Shown piece by piece: positions 3,018 through 50,862 of a stretch of 64,000 bases of DNA. A program made the translations under genes and the position numbers. Within the stretch, counting starts at the first letter, position 1; each line of letters opens with the position of its first letter. This stretch comes from Paenibacillus donghaensis (lineage in GTDB: Bacteria; Bacillota; Bacilli; Paenibacillales; Paenibacillaceae), in NCBI RefSeq assembly GCF_002192415.1, contig NZ_CP021780.1, forward strand, positions 1,240,001 through 1,304,000, given 5' to 3'. A model generated the notes under the pieces. That model searched no databases. It was not told where the DNA came from and saw only the letters and a program-made list of their open reading frames with translations.

Positions 3018-3120
3018 TTTTAAGTGGATTATATAGCTCATTCACGTAGTTGACCATTGTTCAATTTGAGTCTACTATTATCTAGAAGTAAATCCTAAAA
3101 TTTGGTTTTTTCTGGAGGCG

Positions 3121-4521
3121 GTGCTTGTTTTGGAACCAGAGAATCTAATTCGTGAGTCATTATCAAGATTTATGAGAGACAATAAACTGAATCACTCACA
3201 ATTTATGGAACAATCAGGACTTAATTCGGGCACGCTAAGTCACATCTTAAAGGGCAGCAAGCCTATTTCATTCAGACAATTAGCTGCTATAACGGAAGGC
3301 ATGGGCTTAGCAGAGGACTACTTTTTTGAAGCATATGTAGTAGAATGTTTCGCCTTTTCAGCTTCTATGCGGCGGATTCGTCCATTTATACATCGCTGCG
3401 CGGAGTTGGATCGACTTAATTGTATCGAACGGATTGCACACAGACTACTGGACGATCTCTCCTATTCAGCCGCACTCTTTGATATTGCCGAAGACTTATT
3501 TGTCAGGAATCAGTGGAAGGCTGCAGCACTAATCTATGCCAATGTGGGTGAAGGCGAGAAGTACCAGCATTCGGAACGTCTGGCAGTATGTCAATACCGA
3601 TTATTTGTGATTGGGTTAGGAGAGGATCTGGACGAGAATTTAAGGGCGGCCAACCAATTCGAACCATATGTGAATCGTCTGGATGAGGCTAACCAACTCG
3701 AAGCTCTGAAGCAATTGATGCATGTCTTTGGTTTGGTTCATAAATGGGTTAAGGTCGATGCATTAGCCATGGAAATGCATAGGGTGGCAACAATTCAGTA
3801 TGAGTTGCAAAATTCTGAGCTTAGCGATAAAGACTGTAGACGAAAAGGTCGCCCATTGTATTATTATATTCTCTATGCCTGCCTTGCACGTTCAAAGGCC
3901 AGTGAAGAGTGTGGAGATTACAAACGGGCATTAGAATTTGTAGCGCTATATTCTAATGGAGAAAGTTGGGTGCAAGAGAAAACCGAAGAATCCAGACGGA
4001 TTATTGCACAATTCTCTGAATGGGCCATTGCCAATACGTATCTTTACCGCCTAATGTCCGGAGATGTGGAAGTGATAGATGAATATGGGAATTACATTGC
4101 ATCTCAGGAAGATGAAATTTTCGTTGCTATACGATTTATGGTGCAAGCAGCAAATAGATATGGATGTAATATAGATAGCATCCTGGAGCGTTTCTCAGCA
4201 TACATACCTTATCAATCGGACAAGACAGATTTTGGAGAATATAAACTGGCTATCCTACAAGAGGGATACGCACAATTTCTGAGCGATCTTGCAGTGTATC
4301 GCCTTAATCAGAATCAAGATTATGCAATAAAATATATTTTAAAAAGTTTGGAGTTATCGATTAGAATAAATAGTAGTAAGAATATAATTACATGTATGTC
4401 ACTTTTTGAACAGTACAGGGATCGTGCTGATCTTGAAACAAAGAAGGAATTCAAAAAACTATCGAAGGGAGTGCATCTAATCAATGAGAAAAAAAGCGTT
4501 GTTCTTCTGGGTTCTCTGTAG
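3121..4521 (+). CDS. AimR/Alo-like (RRNPP) peptide receptor, HTH plus TPR-like helices
   Basis: The 466-aa cytoplasmic protein begins with an XRE-type helix-turn-helix (about residues 8-60; the LNSGTLSHILKG stretch is a typical recognition helix). The remaining 400 residues read as alternating helices of TPR-like character. This is the layout of RRNPP receptors that bind a re-imported signalling peptide, and it is closest in feel to the AimR-like (Alo) receptors of Paenibacillus. It ends in an overlap with a 33-codon gene for a secreted peptide (4484-4585), the receptor-then-peptide order of such systems. The GTG at 3121 sits only 2 nt from GGAGG; the TTG at 3130 is an equally possible start. 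DNA targets are not known. A clade with a non-peptide ligand cannot be excluded. Confidence 0.75.
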   Translation: MLVLEPENLIRESLSRFMRDNKLNHSQFMEQSGLNSGTLSHILKGSKPISFRQLAAITEGMGLAEDYFFEAYVVECFAFSASMRRIRPFIHRCAELDRLNCIERIAHRLLDDLSYSAALFDIAEDLFVRNQWKAAALIYANVGEGEKYQHSERLAVCQYRLFVIGLGEDLDENLRAANQFEPYVNRLDEANQLEALKQLMHVFGLVHKWVKVDALAMEMHRVATIQYELQNSELSDKDCRRKGRPLYYYILYACLARSKASEECGDYKRALEFVALYSNGESWVQEKTEESRRIIAQFSEWAIANTYLYRLMSGDVEVIDEYGNYIASQEDEIFVAIRFMVQAANRYGCNIDSILERFSAYIPYQSDKTDFGEYKLAILQEGYAQFLSDLAVYRLNQNQDYAIKYILKSLELSIRINSSKNIITCMSLFEQYRDRADLETKKEFKKLSKGVHLINEKKSVVLLGSL

Positions 4522-4585
4522 TGTTGTGACTGTGGTTTCTACACCGGGGATAATCGCACCTATGACACATGGATGGGGGACGTAA
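4484..4585 (+). CDS. Phr/AimP-like secreted signalling peptide precursor, 33 aa
   Basis: The 33-residue product has a basic start (MRKK), a hydrophobic core (LFFWVLCSVVTVV) and a polar tail ending APMTHGWGT, the shape of an exported pro-peptide whose last 5-8 residues become the mature signal. The gene overlaps the 3' end of the receptor gene by 38 nt in another frame, with AAGGGAG about 12 nt before the ATG, and a terminator follows directly. A C-terminal HG(W/R)G motif is, as I recall, typical of Alo peptides from Paenibacillus. The mature form (for example THGWGT) and its binding to the neighbouring receptor are inferences. Confidence 0.7.
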   Translation: MRKKALFFWVLCSVVTVVSTPGIIAPMTHGWGT

Positions 4586-4598
4586 TTAAAGAGTAAAC

Positions 4599-4637
4599 TA
4601 AAAAGGGCGTTCCTGATTCTAGGGATCGTCCTTTTTT
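4599..4637 (+). terminator. Terminator of the receptor/peptide unit
   Basis: AAAGGGCGTTCC pairs with GGGATCGTCCTTT across an 8-nt loop and is followed by a run of T. Confidence 0.75.
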
Positions 4638-4780
4638 CATACCCTGATAGCAAACTTAGCACGGGTTTAAGCCCGGACTGGATCAAGAATTGCGGTTCAC
4701 CACCTAATGATTACATGTGTCTTCTGGGTCTGATGCAATTATTTGGCATAAAAACCTAGAATATCACAAGGGGCGAACCA

Positions 4781-4951
4781 ATGAAAGGCGATTCGATGTT
4801 AATTCAAATTCGTATTGAGCAGGAACGGCAAGAGATGTATCTGCTGGTGGGAAAATACGGCGATCTTGCACATCCGAAAGTCATTAAGCAATCCATACTA
4901 CTGGACGATCTAATCAATCAGTATAATAACAAAGATGATAAGGGAAAATAA
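4781..4951 (+). CDS. Spo0E-like aspartyl-phosphate phosphatase, 56 aa
   Basis: The small protein fits the Spo0E family, whose members are short helical hairpins that dephosphorylate Spo0A~P and so delay sporulation. The family signature S-x-x-L-D-x-x-I is present as SILLDDLI near residue 40, preceded by a helix rich in charged residues (EQERQEMYLLV). AAGGGG lies 9 nt before the ATG at 4781; an in-frame ATG at 4796 is an alternative. It lies 200 nt after the peptide-signalling pair and points the same way, separated from it by a terminator, so it is transcribed separately. A link between the peptide system and sporulation timing is suggested only by proximity. Confidence 0.75.
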   Translation: MKGDSMLIQIRIEQERQEMYLLVGKYGDLAHPKVIKQSILLDDLINQYNNKDDKGK

Positions 4952-5116
4952 CAAAAGCCAATTGCTGAGCAATCGACATTGCCTACTACAGTTTCCCTTT
5001 ATTCTAATAAAGTATAAAGAACAAAAAGTGGCTGTTAGTTTCGCTTGATATCCTTAGGTGAGAATAGTAGTGAGGTAGGCGAATATGTAGTGGATTCTTT
5101 AGGTAGCGGAGTGGCT

Positions 5117-5124
5117 CTTGAAGT
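5117..5124. repeat. Left target-site duplication CTTGAAGT
   Basis: The eight bases directly before the left end of the IS66-like element are repeated perfectly at 7087-7094. Eight base pairs is the duplication length of the IS66 family. Confidence 0.85.
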
Positions 5125-7086: not shown

Positions 7087-7094
7087 CTTGAAGT
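7087..7094. repeat. Right target-site duplication CTTGAAGT
   Basis: Perfect copy of 5117-5124, directly after the right inverted repeat of the IS66-like element. Confidence 0.85.
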
Positions 7095-7188
7095 AGCAGA
7101 AACCTTGAATCGTCGCTGGGAAGCCTACGAAGTGGCCTCAGGCTGAATTGCAGTTTCTACGGACTGAGTGGAGGCGAAACATACATAA

Positions 7189-7532
7189 ACCATACTTTCT
7201 GTGTACTTTTGTAGAACGCGAGCCTATGTTTTATCTGATATTCTCATAGCATGTCAATATAGAGCGGCCTTTGGGCGGCTTTTTTTCTTTTCAGAGAAGG
7301 AGATGGCAGGGCAGATAACGTACATCTATCTCACGGAATTAAGCGGTGCGGAAGATCCTTCTCCAAGCAGTAGGGTTAGCAGAAGAAGGTTTTGTGACAT
7401 TGGGATTTTCAGCTGAAGAACAGGAAAATTTTCATAATCCATACTTTTTTAGAATGTTATTCGAACGTTTGAATGGCTTTAACGAGATAAGATTATAGAG
7501 TAAACATATTGTTCAAAGGAGGCAGAGCGTCA
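7189..7532. other. Decayed stretch before the transfer operon
   Basis: This holds a degraded terminator-like hairpin (AGCGGCC/GGGCGGCT plus T-run, about 7261-7290). A possible broken short gene follows: from the ATG at 7303 it reads MAGQITYIYLTELSG in one frame, then continues as KILLQAVGLAEEGFVTLGFS in the next frame to a TAG at 7496. The second part looks protein-like (acidic, helical) but is not recognised. The promoter of the following operon should be here but is not obvious. Confidence 0.35.
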
Positions 7533-12540: not shown

Positions 12541-14565
12541 ATGGATCAGGAGCATCAGGAACGGGAAGACGAACTCCTCCGGGCAAGCTTTATGGGCGAT
12601 ATCCGTGAGGATGTACAGTTTTTGGGTCTGTCCCTAGGGGATATCGGCTGGATTGTTGGCACAACATTGGTGATCGGGGGCCTTCCCTTTCTGCTTCCAG
12701 TCTCTGTCGTGTTCAAGTTGAGTTGGATTCTTGTTATCTTTATCGTGAGCACGCTCGGGCATATGCTGAAATGGCCCTATCGCTTGAAGCGTTATATCCA
12801 TGATGTACAGCGACAAAAGGAAGGAACCGGGGAAGAACTCGGTTCCTTTCTAGGTGTGGAGGAAGACGGTTGGCTGTACCGCAGCGGAAAGATGCTGCAT
12901 GTGGTGTCCTCGTTATCCGCAGCCCCCTGGAAAACAGCGGTGTATGGGCAAAAGCGGACACGGATCGGTGGATTCGAACAATTCTTGCGTGCGATCGTGC
13001 AGGAAGGCTTCTCCGCGCAAATTTCGGCAGAGCAGATTCCGGATGTGCGGCAGGAGCTCTGGAACGAGAAGCGGAACCGCGCCGCTGCAAGTGACGGTAT
13101 CCAGCAAATGAAGCTGAACCGAATCGAGATGTGGGAACGGCTGGCCCGAAATGGAGAGGCATTGCGTAGTGAATATACGCTGACCCTCACCACATCGGAA
13201 GCTCAAATCAAGATCCGGGAACGGGCCGATGAACCCGCAGACCTCAGTCCCGAGGAGGTTAAACGGTTTCGCATGTTAAGTGAACTGCAGGAGAAGAAAG
13301 ACCGTGTGCTGAATACACTCTCCTCTCATGGAGGGCACACCCTGTCTCTGTTATCCGGATTCTCATTGCCAGAGATTCTAGGACGCTGGTGGGACCGGAC
13401 CACCTGGGAAGCCTGGAAAATGGCTGAAGGGACATGGGAAGAACCGGCTGAAGATTTGGAAAACCTTCACCAGTCCGAAGATCAGGAGGAAATTGAGGAG
13501 GATCGCTCCATGTTTAGTCCTTCGCTTACCCAATGGATACAAGAGGAAGCGGAGAATGAGGCAAGTGCTGAGATGAAGGAGCAGGATGTACTTGTTCCGT
13601 TAGTGCTGGATGAGGAAATTCCGGACAAGTCGGGCCTTGCTACGCTCAAGCTAAGAAAATGGCCCATCGCAAAGTGGCTGCAGCGCAGTAAGGAGGAGTT
13701 CTCCCGTCTCCGGATGGCATGCAAAGAGCATGTTCTACCTTTGATCAGGAAGTGGGCAACGGTTGGCCTTTTGAGGTGGCAAACATTCAGAATGCGTAAA
13801 GCTGTAGTCCTTGCAGAACGAGTGGAACAGGTGAAAGAAGAGTTTGCTGGAGAAGAAGGTTTACAATCTACGCCTCCGGTTGCGATGCCTGGACAACTTC
13901 CCAAGGGACTACGGGGAATTGTGCTGCTTACCTCACCGGCACCAAGTGGAGTCTCGTTTCTAGCTGCAAATCTGGGAGTGTCCCGTAGCTTTACCGGAAT
14001 AACCGTGAGTATTGTCGACTTGTCAACGGATCAGGGCGTGAAGACCGTGCTGAATCCGTTAAGGCATTCGCTGGAGTTGGAGGAATGGGATATATGGACG
14101 GGCAAAGCCGCGAACTGGCTGTTATTTACGCCTTCGCAATATCCTTCATTGGCGCAAGTGGAATATCTGCTCCAACGCCGCGCAGCGGAGGATGGGCTAG
14201 TCATAGCCGAGATCCCCTGGAACTATCCGCAGCGGGAAGCGCTGATGCAGCGTTATCGATCCATTGCCGTTGTGGATTGCGATTATCATCATTGGTTGCA
14301 GTTTACAAACGCGGCCCCGAGCTGGGGTGGTGATTTTTGGCTGAACCAGAGCACCCCGGAGATGGTCAGTAAAATGTCTTCCCTGCTTAAAGAGCAATAC
14401 CAGCAGTCCTTCACAGCGATTTATCCGTATTTTTCGGCTGCGGCCTATGGCCTCTACCAAGGTCGCCCCTTGGCGCTTGATCCGGAGCTGCGTGAAATGT
14501 TGAACGCACAACAAAGAGAGGAGGAAGCCGATGAGCCTGCTCAAACATACGAATCGGTTGGTTAA
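12541..14565 (+). CDS. PrgI-like membrane protein fused to a degenerate ParA-like domain
   Basis: The protein is about 674 residues long. Residues 1-90 resemble PrgI/VirB3-like subunits: DVQFLGLSLGDIGWIVGTTL is followed by a second hydrophobic segment and a basic tail. The middle (about 90-430) is charged, helical and acidic in places. From about residue 456 a SIMIBI-like fold begins (GIVLLTSPAPSGVSFLAANL), with a loop in the P-loop position that lacks the lysines; VSIVDLSTDQG follows. PrgI/VirB3 normally precedes VirB4, and this gene indeed overlaps virB4 by 35 nt. The ATG at 12541 follows TAGGTG; the GTG at 12532 is an alternative. The fused ATPase-like domain is unlikely to bind ATP in the usual way. 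Confidence 0.6.
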   Translation: MDQEHQEREDELLRASFMGDIREDVQFLGLSLGDIGWIVGTTLVIGGLPFLLPVSVVFKLSWILVIFIVSTLGHMLKWPYRLKRYIHDVQRQKEGTGEELGSFLGVEEDGWLYRSGKMLHVVSSLSAAPWKTAVYGQKRTRIGGFEQFLRAIVQEGFSAQISAEQIPDVRQELWNEKRNRAAASDGIQQMKLNRIEMWERLARNGEALRSEYTLTLTTSEAQIKIRERADEPADLSPEEVKRFRMLSELQEKKDRVLNTLSSHGGHTLSLLSGFSLPEILGRWWDRTTWEAWKMAEGTWEEPAEDLENLHQSEDQEEIEEDRSMFSPSLTQWIQEEAENEASAEMKEQDVLVPLVLDEEIPDKSGLATLKLRKWPIAKWLQRSKEEFSRLRMACKEHVLPLIRKWATVGLLRWQTFRMRKAVVLAERVEQVKEEFAGEEGLQSTPPVAMPGQLPKGLRGIVLLTSPAPSGVSFLAANLGVSRSFTGITVSIVDLSTDQGVKTVLNPLRHSLELEEWDIWTGKAANWLLFTPSQYPSLAQVEYLLQRRAAEDGLVIAEIPWNYPQREALMQRYRSIAVVDCDYHHWLQFTNAAPSWGGDFWLNQSTPEMVSKMSSLLKEQYQQSFTAIYPYFSAAAYGLYQGRPLALDPELREMLNAQQREEEADEPAQTYESVG

Positions 14566-16367
14566 ACGATGGATGAAGCATCCACGGCATGTGGTTGTGA
14601 ACACCCTCGATGGAAAAGACGGGAAAACAGGACATTTTGTCCGTGTACTTATGGTCCAGGAGTATCCGCCGGAGATTATTGCCGGGTATCTGGATCATCT
14701 GGACGGCATTGTCTCGGATGCCGGAGCGACCTTACGCAAGACGATCCGGTATGCGAAAAGTGACATCAAATTCAACACGCGAATGAAATATAAATTAAAC
14801 CGTTTAACGGCCAGTATCCAGGATCAGAGTGAAACGGACCCGGCGCGAAATGCAGAGATTGCCGCGAAGGAAACGATTTTGGCTTTGCGGGACTCCACAT
14901 TGTCGAATGACCACAAGCTGGTGGAAGTGCAAACCTTTTTGACGTTATCCGCGCCGAAGTTGCATCAAATTGAGGCGGCTGAGGCGGGGCTGAAGCTGTG
15001 GTTTGATAATATGTCCGGCAAGCTGAATGAATTGAAGCGTGAGCAGAGTGAAGCGATGCGGCAGACGGGTCCTGCCTCTGATCCGTATGCGGCTCACAGT
15101 GAATTTTTTAACATAACCCATTATGGGCGTGTGACCACCGATTCGGTCGCGGCACGCACGTATCCTATGACACGAGGCTCCTTCTCCGATAATGAAGGAC
15201 CCTATTTTGGTCGCCGGACCGAGGACGGCGGCTTTTGTTTTGTCAATATTTGCGATCCGGATGATCCTCGGGCACAGAACGTCACCGTGTTCGGCAAGAC
15301 GGGAGAAGGCAAGAGTTACTTTTTGAAGGCGCTGGTGGTCTCGCTGCTGGAAGAAGGGGTACATGTATTTGTTTTTGATCTGGATGGCGAATGGCTTGAT
15401 TTATGTAAGTATGTGGGCGGTGTCTATATTGACCACACCACAGAGGAAGGCCGTTACTTTGAACCATTGACAATTATGCCTGCGATCACGGAGATCGATG
15501 AGGAGTGCGCACGGTATAATCGCTCCCGCTATAAGATGGCCGAAATGGGCGGTTTGCGAACCTTTTCTTTGCTTGGGGAGAACTTGACCCGCCCGGAAAT
15601 CTTCGAGGTGGGAGAAGCCATCCGCAGGGATTGATAAGAAACGGCCGGAAACCTGGAACTGTCCTACGGGACCCAAGCCAACGATTCACGCCGTATTCGC
15701 GGAAATCGAGCAGGCTTCGCACACGAATAGCGATGCCAAAAGTGTGTATGACAAAATCAAAATCTATTTCATCGGAATTTACGATGATATCTTCCAAATC
15801 GAAGAATCTTCCAACTTTGAGCATCAGGCCCCTCTTGTGGTGTACCGGGTCGGTTCAGGGGAAGAAGATGAATCCAAGAAAGATGAATCGGCCAAGCAGG
15901 CTCAGATTAAGATGTCGATGGCCTTTGAACAGGTCAATGCCAGCATTCATTTGCTTAAAATCGCCGGTGCAGATTTTTCAGCGGTCCTGGTGGATGAAGG
16001 TCAGCGGCAACTGCAGAATCCGGAGCTGCGCAGTTACGTGTTTAGCTGGTACACAGCTATTCGCAAGCAAAATGGCATGATGATTCTGGCAGGCAATTCC
16101 CCGGCCATTATGCTGGATACCGCCAAAGGCGTGGGGATGTGGGAAAACACCAGTGTTCGCGTCTATTTCTACATGGAGCAATCTGCTGTGCGTTTACTAT
16201 CCTCCCATGCGGATCTCCCCATCGAAATTCAGGATCTGATCACCCAGAACGAAGGGACGCAGCGCTATATTCTGGAGAACCACAAACGGTACGATGAACT
16301 GATTATGCATGTCCCTCCGGAAGAACATGTCCTGTACAAAACGCGGGGACTGAAAACTGCGGGATAA
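14531..16367 (+). pseudogene. VirB4/TraE-type conjugation ATPase, split by a +1 frameshift
   Basis: The ATG at 14531 follows GAGGAGG. The first 367 codons hold the N-terminal VirB4 domain and the Walker A motif GKTGEGKS (near residue 255). The frame ends in TGA at 15634, but one base further it continues as IDKKRPETWNCP to a normal end at 16367. The second part includes the Walker B strand AVLVDEGQRQL and the QNxG-like NSPAIMLDTAKG. Removing a single G from the GGG at 15627-15629 restores one open frame of about 611 codons, slightly short for VirB4. VirB4 powers substrate passage and pilus or channel assembly. If the extra G is real, the transfer system is inactive. Confidence 0.8.
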
Positions 16368-17495: not shown

Positions 17496-17756
17496 GTGAA
17501 CTTAACGGTTGTCGTTATCGCTTTGATGTTATGGATTGTTTACAAGAAAGGGAGTAATGGACTCCCGTCTTGGCTGGTAAAAACAATCGGTGTTTTTTTG
17601 ATCATCATGCTGATTCGTAATTTAGGGGAAGTCTATCAATTTGTATTTGTGGAGTCGGATGCCTGGTGGCCTCTGGTTAAGGAAAATGGGGCGCGTTTCT
17701 CGGAAAACTTGAGAAGCTTGCTCCGGAAAATGATGGAAGGAGGAGCTGAATCATGA
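17496..17756 (+). CDS. Small membrane protein of the transfer operon
   Basis: The 86-aa product has two hydrophobic segments (VVVIALMLWIVYKKG near the start and TIGVFLIIMLIRNLG in the middle) and a charged C-terminal helix. It starts at a GTG 3 nt after the wall hydrolase gene and ends in an ATGA overlap with the coupling-protein gene, so it is translated as part of the operon. No family is recognised; it is most likely a minor component that pairs with the coupling protein. Confidence 0.55.
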   Translation: MNLTVVVIALMLWIVYKKGSNGLPSWLVKTIGVFLIIMLIRNLGEVYQFVFVESDAWWPLVKENGARFSENLRSLLRKMMEGGAES

Positions 17757-19617
17757 GCGTACCGGAGTCACAGCCAAAGGAGACATTCTCCCAATTTGTA
17801 AACCGTATCACACTCACGGCAGCCCTGCTAAGCGGCGGGGCTTTACTGTTTGACGTAGCGGAGTTGAACGCGGTATCGCTTCAGATCTTTCGCTACTCCG
17901 TTACACTGTGGGTTGTATTGGTGGCTTTGCCGAATGGCGCACAGTGGATATGGAAGCACAAATTGAAGGTTGTTGCAGGCTTCGTCATAGCGAAGCAGAT
18001 ATTGCGAGAACGAGAGTGGAGATGGAGTCCGTCAAGCGCCGGTTCATCCGAAGGGAAGCTTGCTGCGGGAGGGACTATTGGATCAATTTCGGAAGTTCCG
18101 GATGGAAAGATGAATGAACCGATGAAACCGGGAGCGACTCTCCCAGCGGAAAGCGGCCCTTATGCGCTGTTCCCACCGAATCCCCGGCCACATTCCTCGT
18201 CTCTACTTTCTCCAGGTCAGGCAGCTGAGCTCATTTTCAATACGGTGCAATTGGCAGGACTCAAAATGGATGAACCCCCTGAAATTTTGTCCATCGATGC
18301 CGGTCCTACCTTGCAGACCATATCATTTCGCCTCCCAGCCCGGCTGCAGCTGAGTGATCTGGTGAAAAAGAGGGATGATCTGGCTAACCATATTGGACAT
18401 GACCGTAGTTTCGAAGTCACTTCGTCCACTCATCCCAGTGCGGCTGCCTTTGTACTACCGCATGAGGAACGGGCGTTTGTCTACATGCGAGATATGACGC
18501 GGGATCTGATTGCTTTTGCAGAGAACGCTCAACTCCCCATGGTGTTTGGCAAGGATATGGAAGGCAAGCCGCTGCTGGTGGATTTAACCGATTTGCCGCA
18601 TCTCCTAGTGGCCGGGGCCACCGGATCGGGGAAGTCCGTTTTTATCAATGGGTTACTCACTTCGCTAGCGACTGCGCGTTCTCCTCAGCAGGTACAGTTT
18701 CTGCTGATCGATCCGAAGATGGTGGAGTTCACGATGTACACCGGCTTGCCGCATCTGATCTCGCCGCCGGTTACTGATCCGAAGCGTGCTTCGCTGATGC
18801 TCAAAAAGCTTGTCGTGGAGATGGAAAATCGGTACCAGCGTTTTGCTGCAGCAGGCGTACGTAACTTGCTGCAGTATAACCGTAATCATCCCCAGGAACA
18901 GATGCCACACATTGTTACAGTGATTGATGAATATGCTGACTTAATGGTGATTGCCCGCGCTGATGTAGAGGAGACCGTACAGCGACTAACCAAATGGGGC
19001 GAGCTGCCGGACTTCACTTGATCTTGGGGACCCAGCGTCCCAGTGTGGATGTCGTAACCGGTGTCATTAAATCTAATCTGCCCTCACGGGTGGCCTCTCA
19101 TTTGCTCAGTGTCTACGATTTCAAGACTATCATGGACACTGGTGGCCCTCATCTGCTCGGTGGCGGGGACGGCATTTGCATGCTGAAAGGGGGGAGGCAG
19201 AAGCGATTCCAGTCAGCAGCGATCAGTGCGGATGATGATGAGACGACTCGTTATATAGAGGATCTGAAGCGCTATTGGCAAAATGAAGTAAGGCTGCGAA
19301 AAGAAGATCCGGAAGTGGAGGCGACCGCAGCGATGAAAGTCCCACTCCAACTATCCAAGGAAGAGGAGGAGGAACCCTTAGCAGGGGAAACTGAGGAATG
19401 GGTTCCTGAGAGTATAGATGTAACCCAGGAGTGGACAGATCCTGGGGAGGAGGACGTGCCGTCCATGAATGAAAGTGTGTACGAACAGGTTATCCGATTG
19501 GCACGTGAGCATAACGGTGTATCCGGTAGGCTGTTGCAGCAAGGAAGGCGATGCACGCACCCCGGCTATTCTCTAAGAAGTGGAAGAAGAAATATCCATT
19601 CAACGCACTGTGTCTGA
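17753..19617 (+). pseudogene. FtsK/SpoIIIE-type coupling protein (TcpA/ConQ-like), frameshifted
   Basis: Two membrane segments (residues 20-65) are followed by a variable linker and an FtsK-type motor. Walker A is AGATGSGKS (near residue 289) and Walker B is VTVIDEYADLM. At 19000 the frame breaks: LTKW should be LTKMGRAAGLHLILGTQRPS, which is restored by adding one A to the AAA run. The 3' end is damaged again: after SGRLLQQ one extra base shifts the frame, and the true frame (EGDARTPAIL) meets a TAA at 19574. The protein would move single-stranded DNA-relaxase substrate to the channel. As written, only an N-terminal piece that includes both Walker motifs would be made. Confidence 0.8.
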
Positions 19618-23086: not shown

Positions 23087-26000
23087 ATGAATTTGAAATC
23101 CAATACATTAAGATTCAAGTTATTTATTATTTTCTTGTGCCTTGCTATTGTCCTACCCAATCTATCAACAGATTACTCACTTCCAACTGTACAAGCGCAA
23201 GAGAGTGGACAGCCAGCGAATTCATTGACATCACTTTTAGAGGAACCTAAAGAACCTTCAGCTTCCTCCTCTTACCCTGCACCGGATGTGAATTACGAGC
23301 CCCAGATTACTCATGAATATTTGCTTGATGAAGATTTGAACCGAAATAATCTCAGCAGAGCATTAAATCAAAAGATATTGGAAGTGCCGGAAGTTACATG
23401 GGAAACCAAGGTTGAAGTCATCAAACAAAAATATGCAAAGTCTCAAGCAAGAGCACGAGGACTCATGTCTACATCTGCCAAGCTTGAACCTATTGCGCTA
23501 TCTACAGAAGACATTAAGAAATTAATGGAGCTCGGAGCCAATATCGAAGATATATATGAATTGGCTTATTTAAGCAGCGAACAACAGATGGAACCCTTCG
23601 AGCTATACCAGAAAAAAGTAGAATATAAGGGTTCATGGGATTTGTTTAGACAATCTTTACCTACTTCGGATCTTGCTAGAGTAACGGAAACCGTTTATAG
23701 CACAGATCTGGCCCCTCTGCCTATCCAAGAACTAAGCGTAGCAGACAGCGTGTATTCCGTAACTCAAACGGTCTATGATCAACTTCTGGGAAAAAGATTT
23801 AAAGGTACGATCCTCACTTCACTAGACTATAATATCAGCAGTGTGTTTAACGATTTTCAGATGGAAGTGATTAATCAGACCGCTAAGCCACAGTTCTCAG
23901 ATCGGTCATTATCCAGCGAGACGGTAGATCCCTCTTCAGGATCGCTTACTTGGAAAGATACCCAGATCAGTCTGCCGGGCAGAGATGGACTGGATCTCAA
24001 CATCGGAGTGATGTTTAATGCTAATCAGGCCCAGCTCATCGACCCCCAGGTTGGGGCGTATAATTTCAACAATAGAAGATATGATCTGGGTACGGGGTGG
24101 AGTTTCCGCTTCCCCTCGGTAGAGAGAGATAATTATGGAAATATCTCGTATCATGATGGTCAAGGTGCAATCTATAATGTTACGGATTTTTCAGAGAATG
24201 AATTGGAGAACTATACCCATCTTAAAGGCTACAAAGGCAAAGATATGCGTTTCGTTTTCGATGCTGCCCAAACCTTTAACAGCGGCCAGTACGGGTCCGA
24301 TTATTATCTGGAATATGCAGATGGGAAAAGAGAATATTTTGGTGGATATGACAATGTCCTGCTGGGTATCAAAGACCGTTTCGGTAACGTAATCACCTTC
24401 AAATACGAAGGTAAACCTTCAGATCATGGAGCTCAGCTCTTGTTGTCCGAAATCAATGACAGTTTGGGACGAAAAGTGCTTTTTGAGTATGATTACATCA
24501 AGAACGCCAGACTGGAGCGGAATCAGGAAACGCCTGAAGAACGGATTACGGTCACCGTTCTGAAGGCTTCGGGAGAAAAAAGTGAGCATGTCACCTATAC
24601 CCGAAAACGAGTGACCTATGCCCTGTCACGAGTCTACCCAGGTGGCTATGCTGACCTCACGTACCCGGGAATCGCAGTCCCGGTATTAACGTCGATTACC
24701 CGCCAAAACGGAGAAAAGACGCAATTTTCACACAGTGTAGGTAATTTCTTTTATAACACGCAACTGAAGGAGTTTAAACCTTGGGATTCCTATACGGAGG
24801 ACACCGCTTACATTAAATTATTGGAGGTGAAGTACCCTCACTCTCTGACCAAATATAACTATGAATATGGGAAGCGGAATTATGGTTATTACGGGGCCAT
24901 GGTCACTGAATATGTAAGCTCACGCTATGACCAAATCATTAAATCCGGTGCGTTTACCGGTGAATACAATAAGGTGGAGTATAGCAGAAATGGAAGTTAT
25001 GATGCTTACCCTGTGTATTATGAACAAGGGAAGTATCCGGCTGAATTCACGTATTCCACGGCTGCCAGTCAAAAGACGTCAAGTGGAAATATAGATACCA
25101 AGTACACCTTTAATGGGAAGGGGCAACTGCTCTCTACAGAGCAAACGGCCCGAAATGGCGAAAAGACAGTGATACGAAATTCGGCGTTTCACCCTCTGTA
25201 CTCCCAATCGCCAACCCTAAGTGAAAGTCTGGACTTTGGAGCTGGAGATAATGACAGCACAGCCAATAAGCTCTACTCTGACTTTACCTACGATGAGTGG
25301 GGGAACATCGCCAGCGCCACCCAGCCGCTAACCGAGAGTCAGCGAAACAACCCGGGACTCAAACAGAAATATACGACAAGCTATAGTTATGAGCCCAACT
25401 TCAGGTTTATATCCGGTAAATCCTGGTATCAGAATGAGAACGATGCAGCACCAAGCTCAGAAAGCTATACGTATACTGCTCAAGGCCGGGTTAATAGCTT
25501 TACTAACCCGCTGGGTGAGGTCAGCAGCTACACTTATGAGAATGCCCCAGATGGTTCAGGTAAACTCCACCGAATCACCGAAACCAAAACGTCTGCAGGA
25601 CAGTTGGTTGCTAAAACGGTTACTGTTCTTGGTGCTGAAACAGGATATGCGTATCCTACGGAGCAGCAGCAATACTTCAATGTGAATCAACCGAACGAGC
25701 AAGCTGTAAGAAAGACTATCCGTTATGACATGGCCAGTGGACGGGTGTTGGAAGAAAGAGATGGAAATGATCGCGTCACCGCTTACCAATACGATGCGTT
25801 AGGGAGAACCCAGAAAGTTACGTATCCAAACACAACAAATGATCTCGGTGTCATCTATAGCGAAGTCGACGAAATTAATTATTATAATAATACTGGACAT
25901 CATGAATTCGATGCCGAGAATGCAGGCACATCAACTCTCAAAGTAGATACTGTAAAGACTATTACCCAAGTATCTACAGGGGCAAATATTAAAACCTATC

Positions 26001-29000
26001 GCAATACACTATATAATGGTTTCGGTTTAGCTTTAATGGAAGAGCAGTGGGACGAGTATTCGGGAAAATGGACGCACAGTGAATATCATTATGACAACTA
26101 TGGCCGGCCGATCTATGCAGCAGATCCGGCTGGAAATATTACTACGGTCGGTTATGATGCTTGGGGCAGACAGAATCGGGCGGTTGACCCCTTTGGAAAT
26201 ATCTATGTCTCAGACAGCAGTCTGAAACAACGCCATAGTATTAGTTATCTGATCGATGTTCGAACGAACGAGAAGCTGAATTATGTGGAAGAATATAACG
26301 ATCAATGGGGAAATCAAACCTCTAAACGAACCTTTAAGACCTGGCCCCAGACTTCAGCGCCGATCGGCGAATCGTATCGGTACGATCTGTTAGGGAATGT
26401 CACGGCCTATACGGATCCGAATCAGAACCTGAATAATGAAGGGGTGACGATCAGTTACCGGTATGACCGATTAAACCGTCTGATTTCACTCAAGGATGCG
26501 TTAAACCAAACAAGCGCCTATGGGTATGATGGCAACGGTCAAATCATCAGTTCGACTATTCAGGCAGCAGGTGGCAGTCCGCAAACAATAAATACCAAAA
26601 CCTATAATGAATTAGGATTACAGACCATTAAAAGAGATGCGGCATCTCTAAATGAAACCCAGCACTACAACAACCTGGGATTAGTGCAACAAAAGACGGA
26701 TCGAATGGGGACGGTTTCGGACTATCGTTATGATGAGCGGAGTCAGCTGAAGAGCGCCAGCTATAAGGGAACTGTTAATGGAGTCGCGCAAACGCAAGAG
26801 AAGCGCCTTATCTTTGGTGATGGCGGTCCGCGTTATCAGACTTCGCAGACCTACATGAACGGGGGACAATCGGCAAGTCGTACCTTGTATATCGATAGTT
26901 TCGGACGTGCTCGCCAAAAGACGGAGAGAGTAGGGAGTCATAGTTCCATCATTCGGACCGGATATAATATTCTGGGGCAGGTTACCGAAGTAAATGATGA
27001 CTATCTGGCGTTTAATACACAGTATAAGTACAATAAGCTGCGTCTCGACCAAGTTCAAACCAATGGCAATGGCGTAGTTAATAACAGCGCAGCCGTAAAT
27101 GTTCAGTATCAGTATACCGGTTCTGGACAAGTGGCAAGCCTCACCTATCCGACTTTGACAGATAGCAGTCTCTTAAAGACCGAATACCAATACAAGAAGG
27201 CACTGGGCTGGGTCGAAAGTGTGACCAACTGGAAGGGTAGCACCGTGTTATCCAAGTCGGAATATGAGTATGACAATAACGGGAATATCACCAAATCGAT
27301 CGAGACGAGAAAGGATCAAGCGACGGAAACGAGCAGTTATACGTATGATGCGTTAAACCGGCTACTCATTGTCACCCGAGCGGATGGCAGCCGAGAAGCG
27401 TATACCTATGATTTAAGAGGGAATCGATTAACGCTGGAGAGTAAAACCTCTATAGAGGCAGCTTTTGCAGAAACCACGTATGGGTATGATCTGCTTAATA
27501 CATTAACGACACTCAGCCAAGGCGGCAAGACGACCCACTTCACGTATTATGCAGATGGGCTGCGGTTCAAAAAAGTGACAGGGAACAGTCAAACCCAATA
27601 CAACTACAACTTGAACGGAGAAGTCATTACCGAAGAGAAAAATAGCGGGCAGAAAGCCAATTATGTACGAGGCGACCGGGTACTGGTGAAAAAAGACAAA
27701 ACGGCGGGAAAGGATTATTATTATCTGTACAATGGTCACGGAGATGTGGTACAGATTGTAGATACGAGCGGTAAGCCGGTGAATACGTATTCGTATGATG
27801 TATGGGGTAACATTACCAACCAAACCGAAGGGATTTCGAATCCGTTTAAGTATACGGGCGAAATCTATGATGAAGAGACTGGGCTTTACTATCTACGGGC
27901 ACGGTATTATGATCCGAGTATGGGACGGTTTTTGAATGAGGATACGGTTGAAGGGCAGATTACGAACCCCTTATCGTTAAACCTGTATACTTATGTAGGT
28001 AATAATCCGCTCATCTATGTAGACCCAAGTGGGAATGTGTGGAAATGGGTTGGAGACGGTTGGAAGATGGTGAAGTCAGCGGCTGTCGCTGTGGCAAATT
28101 TTATGGTCGTTGACGATATTCGGACGATTATCGATCCGAATGCCTCAACGTTCGATAAATCGCTCGCTATTGCAGGTTTCATCCCCGTAGGTAAATTTAT
28201 TAAGGGCGGTAAAATAGTTGTAAAGCTGATTAGCAAGGAAGGTAAAGTAATTGAGAGAGCAGTTGAAAAAACGGTAAAAAATGAAAAGGCGATCGCTAAA
28301 GCGTTAGGGTGTAATTGTTTTACAGCAGGAACGAAGGTGCAAACAGAGGATGGGGAGAAACCTATCGAGGAAATCGAGGTAGGGGATAAGGTTCTATCCA
28401 AGTCTGATGTAACCGGAGAAGTGGAATACAAAGAAGTAGTACAGCTGTTCCAAAAGCAGGCTGATGAAATTTATTACGTCCATATCGGTGATGAAGTCAT
28501 TGAGACAACTGGATTGCATCCATTCTGGTTAGATGGAAAAGGTTGGACGCTTGTACAATATTTAAAGGTTGGAGAATTGCTTGTTTCAAGTAATGGTACT
28601 AAACTTGCAATAGACAAGATTGAGAAAGCGCCGAGACAAGCAACTGTTTACAACTTCATGGTCGCCGATTATCATTCTTACTTTATATCTAATCTTGGGA
28701 TTTGGGTGCATAATTGTACCATTATCACCGCAGGCAAGAACTTCAAAGACCATTTTATTCGACACAAGGGCATTTTGGAAAATGCTCTTGGAACAAAGTA
28801 CGCAAAATATAAGACACACGGTGACGCATTTCTGAATGATATTGGAAAAATAATTGATGATGGAACTGTAAAGTTAGTCGGTAAGGGTACTTTGAAAAAA
28901 GATGGTGAAGTGTTAAATATTTATAAAGGCAATGGGATGACAGTAGCCACTAAAGCAAATGGAGAGTTTGTTACTTTAATAGAGTCAGGTAAGGGTATGG

Positions 29001-29023
29001 ACTTAAATATTCAATTTAAATAA
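23087..29023 (+). CDS. Secreted Rhs/YD-repeat polymorphic toxin with HINT domain and C-terminal toxin
   Basis: The 1978-aa protein has a signal peptide (about residues 1-38), a region of about 900 residues with early Rhs-type repeats, dense YD repeats (YDALGR, YDNYGRP, YDLLGNV and similar) and the Rhs core end YYLRARYYDPSMGRF near residue 1600. After DPSGN (about 1646) come a pre-toxin helix region, a HINT autoprotease (CFTAGTKVQTEDGEKPIEEI near 1743 to GIWVHNC near 1876) and about 100 residues of toxin. The toxin has FKDHFIRHKGILENALG and lysine/glycine-rich strands, suggesting a small RNase-like (BECR-type) fold; this is not proven. HINT would release the toxin by self-cleavage at the Asn-Cys end. 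GGAGAG almost touches the ATG, so TTG 23093 may be the real start. An immunity candidate follows 12 nt on. Confidence 0.88.
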   Translation: MNLKSNTLRFKLFIIFLCLAIVLPNLSTDYSLPTVQAQESGQPANSLTSLLEEPKEPSASSSYPAPDVNYEPQITHEYLLDEDLNRNNLSRALNQKILEVPEVTWETKVEVIKQKYAKSQARARGLMSTSAKLEPIALSTEDIKKLMELGANIEDIYELAYLSSEQQMEPFELYQKKVEYKGSWDLFRQSLPTSDLARVTETVYSTDLAPLPIQELSVADSVYSVTQTVYDQLLGKRFKGTILTSLDYNISSVFNDFQMEVINQTAKPQFSDRSLSSETVDPSSGSLTWKDTQISLPGRDGLDLNIGVMFNANQAQLIDPQVGAYNFNNRRYDLGTGWSFRFPSVERDNYGNISYHDGQGAIYNVTDFSENELENYTHLKGYKGKDMRFVFDAAQTFNSGQYGSDYYLEYADGKREYFGGYDNVLLGIKDRFGNVITFKYEGKPSDHGAQLLLSEINDSLGRKVLFEYDYIKNARLERNQETPEERITVTVLKASGEKSEHVTYTRKRVTYALSRVYPGGYADLTYPGIAVPVLTSITRQNGEKTQFSHSVGNFFYNTQLKEFKPWDSYTEDTAYIKLLEVKYPHSLTKYNYEYGKRNYGYYGAMVTEYVSSRYDQIIKSGAFTGEYNKVEYSRNGSYDAYPVYYEQGKYPAEFTYSTAASQKTSSGNIDTKYTFNGKGQLLSTEQTARNGEKTVIRNSAFHPLYSQSPTLSESLDFGAGDNDSTANKLYSDFTYDEWGNIASATQPLTESQRNNPGLKQKYTTSYSYEPNFRFISGKSWYQNENDAAPSSESYTYTAQGRVNSFTNPLGEVSSYTYENAPDGSGKLHRITETKTSAGQLVAKTVTVLGAETGYAYPTEQQQYFNVNQPNEQAVRKTIRYDMASGRVLEERDGNDRVTAYQYDALGRTQKVTYPNTTNDLGVIYSEVDEINYYNNTGHHEFDAENAGTSTLKVDTVKTITQVSTGANIKTYRNTLYNGFGLALMEEQWDEYSGKWTHSEYHYDNYGRPIYAADPAGNITTVGYDAWGRQNRAVDPFGNIYVSDSSLKQRHSISYLIDVRTNEKLNYVEEYNDQWGNQTSKRTFKTWPQTSAPIGESYRYDLLGNVTAYTDPNQNLNNEGVTISYRYDRLNRLISLKDALNQTSAYGYDGNGQIISSTIQAAGGSPQTINTKTYNELGLQTIKRDAASLNETQHYNNLGLVQQKTDRMGTVSDYRYDERSQLKSASYKGTVNGVAQTQEKRLIFGDGGPRYQTSQTYMNGGQSASRTLYIDSFGRARQKTERVGSHSSIIRTGYNILGQVTEVNDDYLAFNTQYKYNKLRLDQVQTNGNGVVNNSAAVNVQYQYTGSGQVASLTYPTLTDSSLLKTEYQYKKALGWVESVTNWKGSTVLSKSEYEYDNNGNITKSIETRKDQATETSSYTYDALNRLLIVTRADGSREAYTYDLRGNRLTLESKTSIEAAFAETTYGYDLLNTLTTLSQGGKTTHFTYYADGLRFKKVTGNSQTQYNYNLNGEVITEEKNSGQKANYVRGDRVLVKKDKTAGKDYYYLYNGHGDVVQIVDTSGKPVNTYSYDVWGNITNQTEGISNPFKYTGEIYDEETGLYYLRARYYDPSMGRFLNEDTVEGQITNPLSLNLYTYVGNNPLIYVDPSGNVWKWVGDGWKMVKSAAVAVANFMVVDDIRTIIDPNASTFDKSLAIAGFIPVGKFIKGGKIVVKLISKEGKVIERAVEKTVKNEKAIAKALGCNCFTAGTKVQTEDGEKPIEEIEVGDKVLSKSDVTGEVEYKEVVQLFQKQADEIYYVHIGDEVIETTGLHPFWLDGKGWTLVQYLKVGELLVSSNGTKLAIDKIEKAPRQATVYNFMVADYHSYFISNLGIWVHNCTIITAGKNFKDHFIRHKGILENALGTKYAKYKTHGDAFLNDIGKIIDDGTVKLVGKGTLKKDGEVLNIYKGNGMTVATKANGEFVTLIESGKGMDLNIQFK

Positions 29024-29595: not shown

Positions 29596-29793
29596 TTACC
29601 CCCACCCAGTGCCGAATGATTGAGTGGCTAATTCCAATAGAACTTATCCCTCATCACCCTGGTGTGATATTCCTCTAATATGAAGTGCGCAGATGGCGTA
29701 AAATAGTTTGTGTAAGGACCGGAGTCTAGTAAATGACAAAAAAGTAGGGTATCCTTGGGATTGCGAAGTCACCAAGAAAAGGAGCCCTACTCA

Positions 29794-30387
29794 ATGACCA
29801 GTATACAACAAAACCCGTTCCAGGATCTACTCGAAAATATCATCCAAAGTTTTCTGAAAGAAAAGATTGAACTCATGCTCCGCGAAGAAATCAAAAAAAT
29901 ATTTAGGTGTCGAACATCCGGAAGACTCCAATACTCGCAACGGATATTACACTCGCACCTGGGAAACACGCCACGGCCTGATCCAGACCTGAACGTCCCG
30001 CGGGATCGGCAAGGTCAATTCCAAACGGAGCTCTTTGAGCCCTACCAGCGCCGGCTTGAAGACACGGTCATTCACATGTATAAAGGCGGCATGAGCACCC
30101 GGGATATCGCTTCGTTTATCGAAAAAATGTTCGGAACCTCGTACTCGCCAACCACCATGAGCAACATCACCGGCACGGTGCTGGAGGATGTGGCCGCCTG
30201 GCAAAACCGTCCGCTCTCTAAGCGCTATTCCGTCATCTATCTGGATGGCATGTACGTCAAACTGAAGCGCCAAACCGTGGCCAGTGAAGCCATCTACATC
30301 GCGATGGGGATCGATGAAGACGGGCACCGGGAAATTCTCAGCTTCAGCATTGGCGGCAAGGAAAGCGTATCCTGTCTGCCGTGGTAA
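29794..30387 (+). pseudogene. IS256-family transposase, truncated and frameshifted
   Basis: AAAAGGAG precedes the ATG at 29794. The N-terminus (NPFQDLLENIIQSFLKEKIE) and DLNVPRDRQGQFQTELFEPY, then MYKGGMSTRDIASFIEKMFG and the first catalytic aspartate in IYLDGMYVKLKR, are typical of IS256 (MULE-type) transposases. Between about residues 34 and 67 the text is out of frame. An extra A in a 7-A run shifts it, and a missing G near 29995 restores it; the other frame gives YLGVEHPEDSNTRNGYYTRT. The gene ends after IGGKES at half the usual length of about 390 residues, so the other two catalytic acids are lost. The likely left end of the element lies at about 29715-29760. Confidence 0.85.
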
Positions 30388-44148: not shown

Positions 44149-47100
44149 ATGAGCCCTTTCGTGCATTTGCATGTGCACAGCGAATACAGTTTACTGGACG
44201 GGGCGGCGCGCATTACCGATCTCGTGCGCCGGGCCGGCGAATACGGCATGAAATCGCTGGCGCTTACGGATCATGGAGTGATGTACGGGGCGATCCCTTT
44301 TTATAAAGCCTGCCAGGCGCAGGGCATTAAGCCGATTATTGGCTGCGAGGCCTACATGACCTCCGGCTCGCGCCGCGAGCGGGGCAGCCGTAAGGATCAG
44401 CCGATCTACCATCTGATCCTGCTCGTCAAGAATGAAACCGGCTACAAGAACCTGATGAAGCTGGTCTCCATCGGCCATCTGGAAGGCCAGCATTACAAGC
44501 CGCGGATTGATATGGAGGTGCTTGCCGAATATGCCGAGGGTATTGTCTGCCTCAGCGCCTGTCTGGGCGGCGAGGTGCCGCAGCATCTGCTGCACGGCCG
44601 GGAGGCGGAAGCCCGCAAGGCGGCTCTGCGCTATAAGGAAATCTTCGGCCCGGATTTCTATCTGGAGCTGCAGGATCACGGCATGGCGGAGCAGAAGCGG
44701 GTCAATCCGCAGCTGATCGCGCTTGCTGCCGAACTCGACATTCCGCTGGTGGCGACCAATGACGTGCATTATCTGCAGCGGCAGGATGCCGAGGTCCAGG
44801 ATGTGCTGATCTGTATTGGAACCGGCAAGACGGTGGACGATGAAGACCGCCTCAAGATGGCCTCGGAGCAGCTGTTCTTCAAGAGTGGTGCAGAAATGGC
44901 GGCGCTGTTCCCGCATGTGCCGGAGGCGCTGGAGAATACCGTGCGGATTGCCGAGAAATGCAATCTGGAGCTGACATTCGGCAATCACATTCTGCCGGCC
45001 TATTCGCCGCTGCCGGAGCAGCAGAGTTCTGCCGCCTACCTGCGGCAGCTCTGCCACGCCGGGCTGGAGCAGCGTTATGCCGGTACGCCGCGCTGGGAGT
45101 CGCCGGAGCAGCGCGAGGCAGCACAGCAGCGGCTTGAATATGAGCTGGGCGTGATTGAGACGATGGGCTTCTGCGATTATTTCCTGATTGTCTGGGATTT
45201 CATCGCCTATGCCCATCGGATGGATATTGCCGTCGGCCCGGGCCGCGGCTCCTCCGCAGGCAGTCTCACGGCGTATTCGCTGCGGATTACCGATGTGGAC
45301 CCGCTGAGATATAATCTGCTGTTCGAGCGGTTCCTGAACCCGGAGCGGATCACCATGCCCGATATCGATATTGACTTCAGCGATGAACGGCGTGAAGAGG
45401 TGATCCAGTATGTTGTGGATAAATACGGCAAGGAGCATGTGGCGCAGATTATTACCTTCGGCACCATGGCTGCCCGTGCCGCAGTGCGCGATGTGGGACG
45501 GGCGCTGAACCTGCCCTACAACGAGGTGGACAAGGCGGCCAAGCTGATTCCAGCCCAACTGGGAATCAGCATCGCCAAAGCGCTGGAAGCGACGCCTGAG
45601 CTGAAGTCACTCTATGAGACCAGCCCCAAGATCAAGGGACTGCTGGACATGGCAATGAAGGTGGAGGGCATGCCGCGGCATGCTTCAACCCATGCTGCCG
45701 GAATCGTGATCTCCAAAGGGCCGCTGACCGATGCCGTGCCGCTGCAGGCCGGCAATGAGAGCACGGTTCTGACCCAGTATTCGATGGAGCATCTGGAGAG
45801 TGTCGGGCTGCTGAAGATGGATTTCCTCGGTCTGCGCACATTGTCGATTATCGAACGCTGTCTGCAGTCCATCCGGGAGATGAACGGCACGGTGCCTGAT
45901 TTCCGGCTGATTCCCGATAATGACGAGCTGACCTATCGGATGCTTAGCGCGGGCGAGACCGCAGGCGTGTTCCAGATGGAATCCTCCGGTGTCCGTCGGG
46001 TGCTGAAGGACCTCAGGCCAACCGGCTTCGAGGATATCGTCTCTGTGGTGGCCTTGTACCGTCCGGGTCCGATGGAGTTTATCCCCAAATATATCGGAGG
46101 CAAACACGGCCAATTCGAGGTGGTCTATCCGCATCCCGATCTGGAGCCGATTCTGGCCGACACCTACGGGATTATCGTCTATCAGGAGCAGATTATGCAG
46201 ATCGCCTCGCTGATGGCCGGGTTCTCGCTCGGTGAATCTGACCTGCTGCGCCGCGCCGTGTCCAAGAAGAAACGCGAGACGCTCGACAAGGAGCGGAGCC
46301 ACTTCGTGGAGGGCAGCCTGCAGCAGGGCTACAGTGAGCAGGATGCGAACGCAGTCTATGATATGATCGTGCGGTTCGCCGATTACGGCTTTCCGCGCGC
46401 CCATGCGGCCGCCTATGGCGTGCTGGCCTTCCAGACCGCCTACCTGAAGGCGCATTACCCGGTGCAGTTCACGGCGGCGATGCTGACCGCTGTCATGGGC
46501 AACCACCGCAAGGTGGCGGAGTATGTGCTGGAATGCCGCCGCACAGGCATCGGCGTATTGCCGCCGGACGTCAATGAGAGCGGCGTGCTGTTCACGCCGG
46601 TTCCCGGCGAAGGGTCGGCAGGCCATATCCGTTTCGGCTTGGCGGCTGTCAAGAATGTCGGTACGCTTGCCGTAGAGAACATCATAGCCGAGCGCAAGGC
46701 GCGCCCATTCGACAGCTTGCTCGATTTCTGTCGGCGGGTAGACCTGCGCGTCTGCAACAAGCGGGTGGTGGAATCGCTCCTGCAGGCCGGAGCCTTCGAC
46801 GGGCTGCCCGGCCACCGCGCACAGCTGCTGGCGATGCTGGACGAGACGGTGGAGGCGGCGCTGAAATGGCGCAAGGAGCGCGATGAGCTGCAGATCCAGC
46901 TGTTCGATGATCTGGTGGAGACCCCGAACTGGGAGATCCGCTACCCGGATATCCCGCGGTTCACGGTAGGTCAGCAGCTTGAGCTGGAACGCGAGCTGCT
47001 GGGCCTGTACCTGTCGGGGCACCCGCTGGACGACAGCGCGGAGCTGCTGGAGGAGCCGGGCATGCAGCGGCTGATGGATCTTGGCGAGGCGCTGGATGAG

Positions 47101-47844: not shown

Positions 47845-47917
47845 GAACAATTCCCACCCCTTCCGCATACATTAGGAAACCACAGGCACTTCCTGTGCGG
47901 AAAGGGGAAATATCATC

Positions 47918-48418
47918 ATGTCCTATCAAATGGCAGCAGACATGCTGAAGCGCAGGGGCGTAACACTTGCATCAATCGCCAAAATTGTATATATTCTGCA
48001 ATCGGTATATTATCCGGGTCTGACGGAGGAAGAATGTGTATCCAGCGTCAAGTCCGTTCTCGGCAAAAGAGAGGTGCAGTACACGCTGCTGACCGGCATC
48101 GCACTGGATGAGCTGGCTGAGAAGAAGCTTCTGCCGCAGCCGCTGCAGGCGGTGATGGAAGCGGATGAGTCGCTCTACGGGGTGGACGAGACTCTGGCGC
48201 TTGGCATTACGAGCATCTACGGGATGATCGGGCTGACCGGCTTCGGTTATCTGGACAAAATAAAGCTCGGCGTCATCGGGGAGCTGAACGATGACAAAAA
48301 CGGGATTCACGTGTTTCTAGATGACCTGGTGGCAGGTATTGCCGCTGCGGCTTCAGCCAGAATCGCCCACAGGCATGAAGGGGCAAACGTCTATCCGCAT
48401 GTCACCGGTACGGAATAA
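47918..48418 (+). CDS. PgpA/YutG-family protein
   Basis: The 166-aa protein resembles the soluble YutG-type branch of the PgpA family: LKRRGVTLASIAKIVYILQS, then CVSSVKSVLGKREVQYTLLT, YGVDETLALGITSIYGMIGL and HVFLDDLVAGIAAAA. PgpA hydrolyses phosphatidylglycerophosphate to phosphatidylglycerol; the aspartate and histidine clusters around GVDE and FLDD fit metal binding. No strong membrane segment is present, unlike classical PgpA, so its substrate is uncertain. GGAAAGGGG lies before the ATG. Confidence 0.8.
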   Translation: MSYQMAADMLKRRGVTLASIAKIVYILQSVYYPGLTEEECVSSVKSVLGKREVQYTLLTGIALDELAEKKLLPQPLQAVMEADESLYGVDETLALGITSIYGMIGLTGFGYLDKIKLGVIGELNDDKNGIHVFLDDLVAGIAAAASARIAHRHEGANVYPHVTGTE

Positions 48419-48567
48419 TTAAACGCCTTGCGATTCCATGGTGGCGGCTGTCCCTGGTCTTGCTTTCTTCGCCCATCTCCTGTTGCGGGAAAAAAGAAAA
48501 CTGTGTTATCATGATTCCATTATACGGGATACGGCTGGGAATTAAGACAGGGGAGGCCTTGCACGGC

Positions 48568-48756
48568 ATGTGGACGGTAATTTACATTGCGCCGACCGCC
48601 CGAGTGGCGGATATGATTCAGAGCAAGCTGACAGAAGAAGGTTTTCTTGTGAAGTGCCGTCCCATCAATATGTCCAAGCAGCAGTTTGAAATTCTGGTGC
48701 CCTCCGGCGAGCTAGAGGAAGTGCAGGAAGTTCTGAATCTGATTCTGCATCCCTGA
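48568..48756 (+). CDS. DUF2007-like small protein
   Basis: The 62-aa protein has the pattern WTVIYIAPTARVADMIQSKL, then TEEGFLVKCRP and FEILVPSGELEEVQEVLNLI, a small alpha/beta fold like the DUF2007 or putative signal-transducing family. GGGGAGG lies 11 nt before the ATG at 48568; the longer frame starting at 48460 is not supported. It precedes accD by 77 nt in the same direction. Its role is unknown. Confidence 0.65.
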   Translation: MWTVIYIAPTARVADMIQSKLTEEGFLVKCRPINMSKQQFEILVPSGELEEVQEVLNLILHP

Positions 48757-48833
48757 GGGCTGTTAAGAAAGAGAGTAGTCATAACAGCGGCAAGCTGCTA
48801 TATACGCAAATAAACGGCTGAAGAGGTGCGGTT

Positions 48834-49736: not shown

Positions 49737-49737
49737 G

Positions 49738-50736: not shown

Positions 50737-50828
50737 AGCATGTTTTGATTTGCACTTTAAGACATAAATGACTGCTGAACGGACAAGAAGCCTGCGAAGA
50801 CCGTTTTTACAATATATTCCTATGTGAT

Positions 50829-50862
50829 AATCCCGGACAAGCGCCGGGATTATTTTTATTTT
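50829..50862 (+). terminator. Terminator of the accDA unit
   Basis: ATCCCGG and CCGGGAT pair around ACAAGCG, followed by TATTTTTATTTT. Confidence 0.8.

Follow-up and report, generated by a model that had tools for sequence, protein, structure and literature searches.

The closest described system to the locus reported here is the Alo family, published by Voichek in 2020 (PMC7425212), in whose published account the receptor AloR13 activates a downstream spo0E-like gene, and the hexapeptide SHGRGG, tested by Voichek et al. as the active form of AloP13, shuts this activation off (PMC7425212). As given in the same source, the family was defined in P. polymyxa ATCC 842, and the reporter construct used for Alo13 implies a separate spo0E promoter (PMC7425212); the criterion given elsewhere for an Alo receptor is at least 30% identity and at least 80% coverage with respect to AloR13 (PMC10075063). 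In the 64,000-nt stretch of Paenibacillus donghaensis DNA analysed here (hereafter, the window), a receptor gene with an overlapping small gene was found. With 100% of the query aligned, the receptor is 39.1% identical to one encoded on a plasmid of P. polymyxa ATCC 842. By sequence comparison, the pair adds another member to the known Alo family.

The pair is best explained as an Alo-type peptide quorum-sensing module in which AloR would control the adjacent spo0E gene, a reading to which a probability of roughly 0.8 is assigned, and which draws on homology, the fold model, gene order and the conservation of the peptide C-terminus. The same lines of evidence support the RRNPP receptor and pro-peptide pair proposed in the preliminary description of this DNA; of its label "AimR/Alo-type" the Alo half was retained and the AimR (arbitrium) half was not favoured, only 2 of 50,697 phage records matching the receptor, at 26% and 23% identity. 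The features of the locus are:

3050-3078, forward strand: probable receptor promoter, TTGACC-17 nt-TACTAT (consensus scan, 9 of 12 positions)
3130-4521, forward strand: aloR-like receptor gene (open reading frame, homology, and AlphaFold2 model with HTH plus TPR-like part)
3136-3300, forward strand: N-terminal helix-turn-helix (HTH) part of the receptor, as predicted (model helices 2-56, PF13443, profile A1)
4484-4585, forward strand: aloP-like pro-peptide gene of 33 codons (open reading frame, conserved overlap, basic start, hydrophobic core)
4565-4582, forward strand: stretch encoding THGWGT, the predicted mature signal (C-terminal HG.G conservation, AloP13 SHGRGG)
4600-4636, forward strand: intrinsic terminator 3' of aloP (hairpin plus U6, -19.5 kcal/mol)
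4730-4769, forward strand: conserved promoter/operator-like element upstream of spo0E (identity in four relatives)
4781-4951, forward strand: Spo0E-like aspartyl-phosphate phosphatase gene, probable target (PF09388, E 1.4e-12; recurs downstream of the pair)

The receptor frame, which ends at 4521 and can be read from a GTG at 3121, would encode 463-466 amino acids depending on the start, TTG 3130 being likelier than GTG 3121, since the latter lies only 2 nt from GGAGG (as seen by eye, also in relatives). Promoter-like sites reaching the consensus score of the one listed above numbered 12 in the stretch vs. 6.4 in shuffles, and similar TTGACC blocks were seen by eye upstream of the receptors of many relatives. 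An N-terminal HTH is indicated by a weak match to Pfam HTH_26 (PF13443; E 0.0011, below the family cut-off), by HTH-like helices at residues 2-56 of the AlphaFold2 model (mean pLDDT 89.3, pTM 0.84), and by profile A1, whose PDB matches include regulatory proteins of the HTH type (E 2.4e-4 for the best). Paired helices continue to residue 461, and this C-terminal region, in which Pfam gave no TPR match, is modelled as divergent TPR-like on the basis of the helical-repeat model aligned to TPR receptors. Matches of the receptor model to NprR, Rap and AimR structures tied with those to unrelated TPR proteins, and a Foldseek search against the PDB returned nothing at E ≤ 0.001, while a viral structure library gave one match (S5MC02, E 2.8e-13, TM 0.66). 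Sequence searches of the PDB retrieved neither NprR nor Rap (receptor query at E ≤ 10, profile at E ≤ 1). In NCBIfam and Rfam nothing was found for the receptor/pro-peptide pair, PADLOC gave a single weak match to the receptor (PDC-M03B, over 67 residues, E 6.8e-4), and PHROGs returned weak regulator matches only.

The pro-peptide encoded by 4484-4585 (MRKKALFFWVLCSVVTVVSTPGIIAPMTHGWGT; 33 aa) starts with RKK and has a hydropathy peak of 2.58, displaying the Alo trait of a short downstream open reading frame (32-50 aa) with a hydrophobic N-terminus; its gene overlaps aloR by 38 nt (4484-4521). The terminator hairpin that follows (z -4.2; 0 of 200 shuffles as good) was absent from the list produced by a simple terminator scanner, and similar hairpins were seen by eye in relatives. 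The preliminary description had placed here a receptor frame with HTH and TPR-like helices, a 33-codon frame overlapping its 3' end by 38 nt, a basic start, hydrophobic core and tail up to THGWGT within that frame, a terminator, and a Spo0E-like neighbour; this observation holds, with both frames at the coordinates given there, and the neighbour is a real Spo0E-like gene.

Receptor matches were present in 81 of 100 genus genomes, including that of the host (E ≤ 1e-20), and scoring of 7999 candidates gave 568 homologues at E ≤ 1e-10; of the 120 homologues listed, those with a name were from Paenibacillus or compost metagenome. Conservation of the pair was evaluated in 67 receptors, a sample of closer relatives rather than a random one, which comprised six from the host, 29 that were best matches in other genomes (L015-L043), a copy on a plasmid (L045) and another 31 taken from the genus-genome listing (L055-L085), leaving out a plasmid record duplicating L015 (L044) and partial hits (L007-L014). 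The pro-peptide frame was present in 60 of the 67 (by the same criterion it was missing in L006, L018, L037, L043, L073, L078 and L080), and its start lay at the identical 38-nt overlap in 54 of these 60. An HG was found within the last nine residues of 59 pro-peptides (the exception being L004) and before them in 0/60, and HG.G was located near the C-terminus in 58/60. As a control, a pro-peptide-like frame was found at the 3' end of only 2 of 175 other open reading frames of at least 200 aa, neither with HG (179 frames with 6 matches, minus 4 that were AloR genes; antisense and shadow frames included); the pro-peptide frame is therefore not a chance one. Conservation of the small frame beside receptor homologues, on which the preliminary description had staked its reading, thus holds, and the HG.G motif together with AloP13 SHGRGG argues for a signal at THGWGT, as it had suggested.

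Locus L073 (2017-2421) has no overlapping frame, and two tandem pro-peptide-like genes, ending GHGWGGL and GHGWGSGEY, lie 228 and 486 nt downstream. A pattern search of the genome contigs by receptor protein gave 44 stretches, none of them a relative, and the published Alo13_F primer had 0 matches in the genome contigs and 0 in the 100 genus genomes at 2 mismatches.

By analogy with Alo13, we infer that the 33-residue AloP would be exported through its N-terminal hydrophobic segment and cleaved to release the C-terminal hexapeptide THGWGT, which would be re-imported and would bind to AloR in its TPR-like part. At low density, without peptide, AloR would activate a separate spo0E promoter, so that Spo0E would be made and Spo0A~P would stay low; at high density, peptide binding would stop this activation and Spo0E would fall, allowing Spo0A~P to build up and dense populations to sporulate or switch sooner. 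It is likely that the pair controls Spo0E and, with it, the timing of sporulation.

Three possible targets had been named in the preliminary description, namely the upstream cellulase, the Spo0E-like gene and the conjugation operon. When 16 window proteins were compared with the flanks of ten relatives, the host's own paralogue included, AloR was matched in 10/10 and Spo0E in 9/10; for the cellulase, a nitroreductase, HxlR and each of the eleven proteins of the conjugation region the figure was 0/10. On this sequence comparison, the Spo0E-like gene alone of the three appears conserved next to the pair, which leaves a single candidate out of the three proposed. A Spo0E-like gene lay within 600 nt downstream in 31 of the 67 relatives under a strict pattern (L060 too under a looser one) and in 10 of the 12 members of the clade of the window receptor, and on plasmids of P. 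sonchi and P. xylanexedens spo0E was found at 1.5 and 1.8 kb from the pair, respectively. Three of the six Spo0E-like genes of the host directly follow an alo pair (window, L003 and L005). The gene is not universal beside the pair, as shown by the figure of 31/67 and by the host's second copy, L002, which lacks it, and this was counted against the explanation.

Two other host loci with Spo0E-like genes showed different arrangements. At L005 (2828-2977 and 3081-3230; near host C1:2790228), a single receptor gene precedes two pro-peptide genes in tandem, nearly identical to each other, with the ends GHHGGG and GHHGEG, and the Spo0E-like gene comes next; the tandem copies are perhaps a duplicated signal that is diverging. 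At L006 (host C1:6573204-6574490, minus strand), a divergent AloR gene with a GC content of 0.538, for which no pro-peptide was found, has a Spo0E-like gene directly upstream, not downstream.

Given the terminator between aloP and spo0E, the latter should have its own promoter in the intervening region. There, a 40-nt block is identical at 30-37 of 40 positions in four relatives, in contrast with 11-15 of 30 in the adjacent upstream sequence, and is a candidate AloR operator; the words "operator" and "binding site" do not occur in the main text of the Alo paper (PMC7425212). Its core was present in 32 of 34 loci, with a pattern drawn by eye from those same loci; the two without it were the Spo0E-like gene leaders at the host's own L003 and L005. 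In the genome, the element had a single site at up to 3 mismatches, and the reversed control had 0. One AloR operator common to aloR and spo0E, suggested by a core that seems shared by eye, is retained as no more than a lead, the position weight matrix of the spo0E elements reaching a shuffle p ≤ 0.05 in just 10 of 34 aloR leaders, a set of related rows equivalent to about 3 effective independent sequences. An AloR operator matching the spo0E element in the aloR leader is weakly supported, the leader of the window aloR having a shuffle p of 0.02. By eye, spo0E leaders also display an inverted TGCAA/TTGCA repeat.

A tree of 68 receptors placed the window receptor (L001) as sister to the host's L002 (support 100/99). 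The supported clade in which both fall (96/95) has 12 members, 11 of which have peptides ending HGWGT; outside this clade, L025 ends HGWGV. In L018 (2780-2960) the small gene has a damaged start and signal part, and a GHGWGT end is still there. The L002 receptor is 80% identical to that of the window and its peptide ends GHGWGT. Comparison of the two small genes showed two silent and no replacement changes in the HGWGT codons, whereas codons 22-26 were all replaced, as was codon 28 (T/G). By eye, glycoside-hydrolase-like, LacI-like and sugar-ABC-transporter-like genes surround the L002 pair (L047, host C1:693001-712000), and the window pair likewise lies near a glycoside hydrolase, the cellulase before aloR. 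Sister receptors, near-identical pro-peptide N-termini, a single difference in the last six residues, the occurrence of both T and G at that position within the clade, and the lack of spo0E beside L002 would all suit a single shared channel, in which THGWGT and GHGWGT cross-activate and the two pairs are partly redundant, or L002 is an eavesdropper with no target of its own; against this, in other RRNPP families a single residue can switch specificity. We regard a shared channel as unlikely, and it is in any case compatible with control of spo0E by an Alo module rather than exclusive of it. With two candidate signals and two sister receptors in one genome, the one-residue specificity of an RRNPP channel becomes directly testable.

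The setting of the locus suggests another possibility, by which the pair would belong to the surrounding mobile or conjugative material and would act mainly on conjugation, as Rap/Phr of plasmids and ICEs do, or on the upstream cellulase. The GH5/CBM17_28 cellulase lies at 1215-2900, before aloR, and downstream of the alo locus, from near 7.5 kb, comes a conjugation-like region in which VirB4-like and FtsK-like ATPases were matched. The locus is AT-rich (GC 0.405 vs. 0.555 for the stretch 44149-60276), close relatives are found on plasmids, including one of P. xylanexedens (L045) on which conjugation genes of a different kind are annotated, beginning about 9 kb downstream of the pair, and L002 lies, by eye, between glycoside-hydrolase-like and sugar-uptake-like genes. 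However, GC values of 0.385-0.423 in five of the six host receptors (0.538 in L006) indicate that low GC is common to these receptor genes and not special to the locus, and the cellulase and 11 conjugation-region proteins matched 0/10 of the relatives' flanks vs. 9/10 for Spo0E. Conjugation or the cellulase as a conserved target was rejected on that 0/10 for the window's own proteins, and the mobile-element account as a whole is judged very unlikely.

Several further observations were made in the window. One gene, by eye DNA-methyltransferase-like, is represented three times by partial copies of its 3' end, at 1-200, 5059-5123 and 7090-7217, the later two being 82% and 73% identical to the first; these copies flank both the cellulase-alo-spo0E and the nitroreductase segment, and are possible insertion scars. 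The conjugation ATPases (14531-15634 and 17753-19617) seem incomplete: of an 894-position model, the VirB4-like frame covers only positions 316-590, and the FtsK-like protein appears by eye to run on in an overlapping second frame, which has no Pfam match. An RHS-repeat protein of 1978 aa, which contains a pretoxin HINT domain, is encoded at 23087-29023, and a mutator-family transposase fragment (29755-30387) lies near it.

That the small frame is a chance frame or a membrane micropeptide rather than a signal, as its length of 33 codons and its overlap with the receptor gene might suggest, is hardly credible given its presence in 60/67 AloR relatives vs. 2/175 controls and the contrast between HGWGT codons with two silent changes and none replaced and the replaced codons 22-26 and 28 in L001 vs. 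L002.

Besides the Alo module of the window, a branch of HTH-less AloR-like TPR proteins of about 270-290 aa was detected in Paenibacillus genomes, equivalent to AloR residues 183-458 (profile E 1.3e-35). In 25 of the 30 such loci read (L094-L123) a pro-peptide gene follows, ending HG(V/A/M/T)(D/G)H, with ends of the form HGVDH or NHG(A/M/T)GH. The host genome has six HTH-less hits, two of which are complete pairs:

Host C1:3035738-3036553 and 6797915-6798727: HTH-less pairs L010 (1414-2422) and L007

Tentatively, and with odds a little short of even, the window pair may represent the half that binds DNA within a wider peptide language built on H-G, whose widespread HTH-less branch would consist of Rap-like cytoplasmic receptors that lost the HTH from the Alo lineage, act by protein contact and possibly cross-talk with the xHG peptides of AloR. 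HTH-less Alo-like pairs were not found in the available text of the literature searched, including PMC7425212, PMC10075063, PMC12700828 and PMC9765709. Should the HTH-less branch be confirmed, it would add one more case in which a lineage of peptide receptors lost DNA binding, in parallel with NprR and Rap.

With respect to known systems, the window receptor carries an N-terminal HTH, as predicted, and so differs from Rap, a TPR phosphatase/anti-activator without one, membership of which was rejected on this ground; with regard to both NprR-NprX and Rap-Phr, the sequence searches of the PDB gave no match to NprR or Rap. From AimR-AimP of Bacillus phages the locus is distinguished by a downstream gene that is Spo0E-like and not aimX, and no phage region was recognised by eye in the window. 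The pair has the appearance of an intact and complete Alo module, ordinary in kind and informative in detail. Likened to Alo13 of P. polymyxa ATCC 842 through the published description of the latter, it shares with that system an HTH plus divergent TPR receptor, a short pro-peptide gene directly downstream, a C-terminal hexapeptide of the form xHGxGx (SHGRGG in Alo13, THGWGT in the window), and a spo0E-like gene directly downstream with what would be its own promoter; it differs in the peptide letters at positions 1, 4 and 6, and in that its genome also contains a second copy, 80% identical to it.
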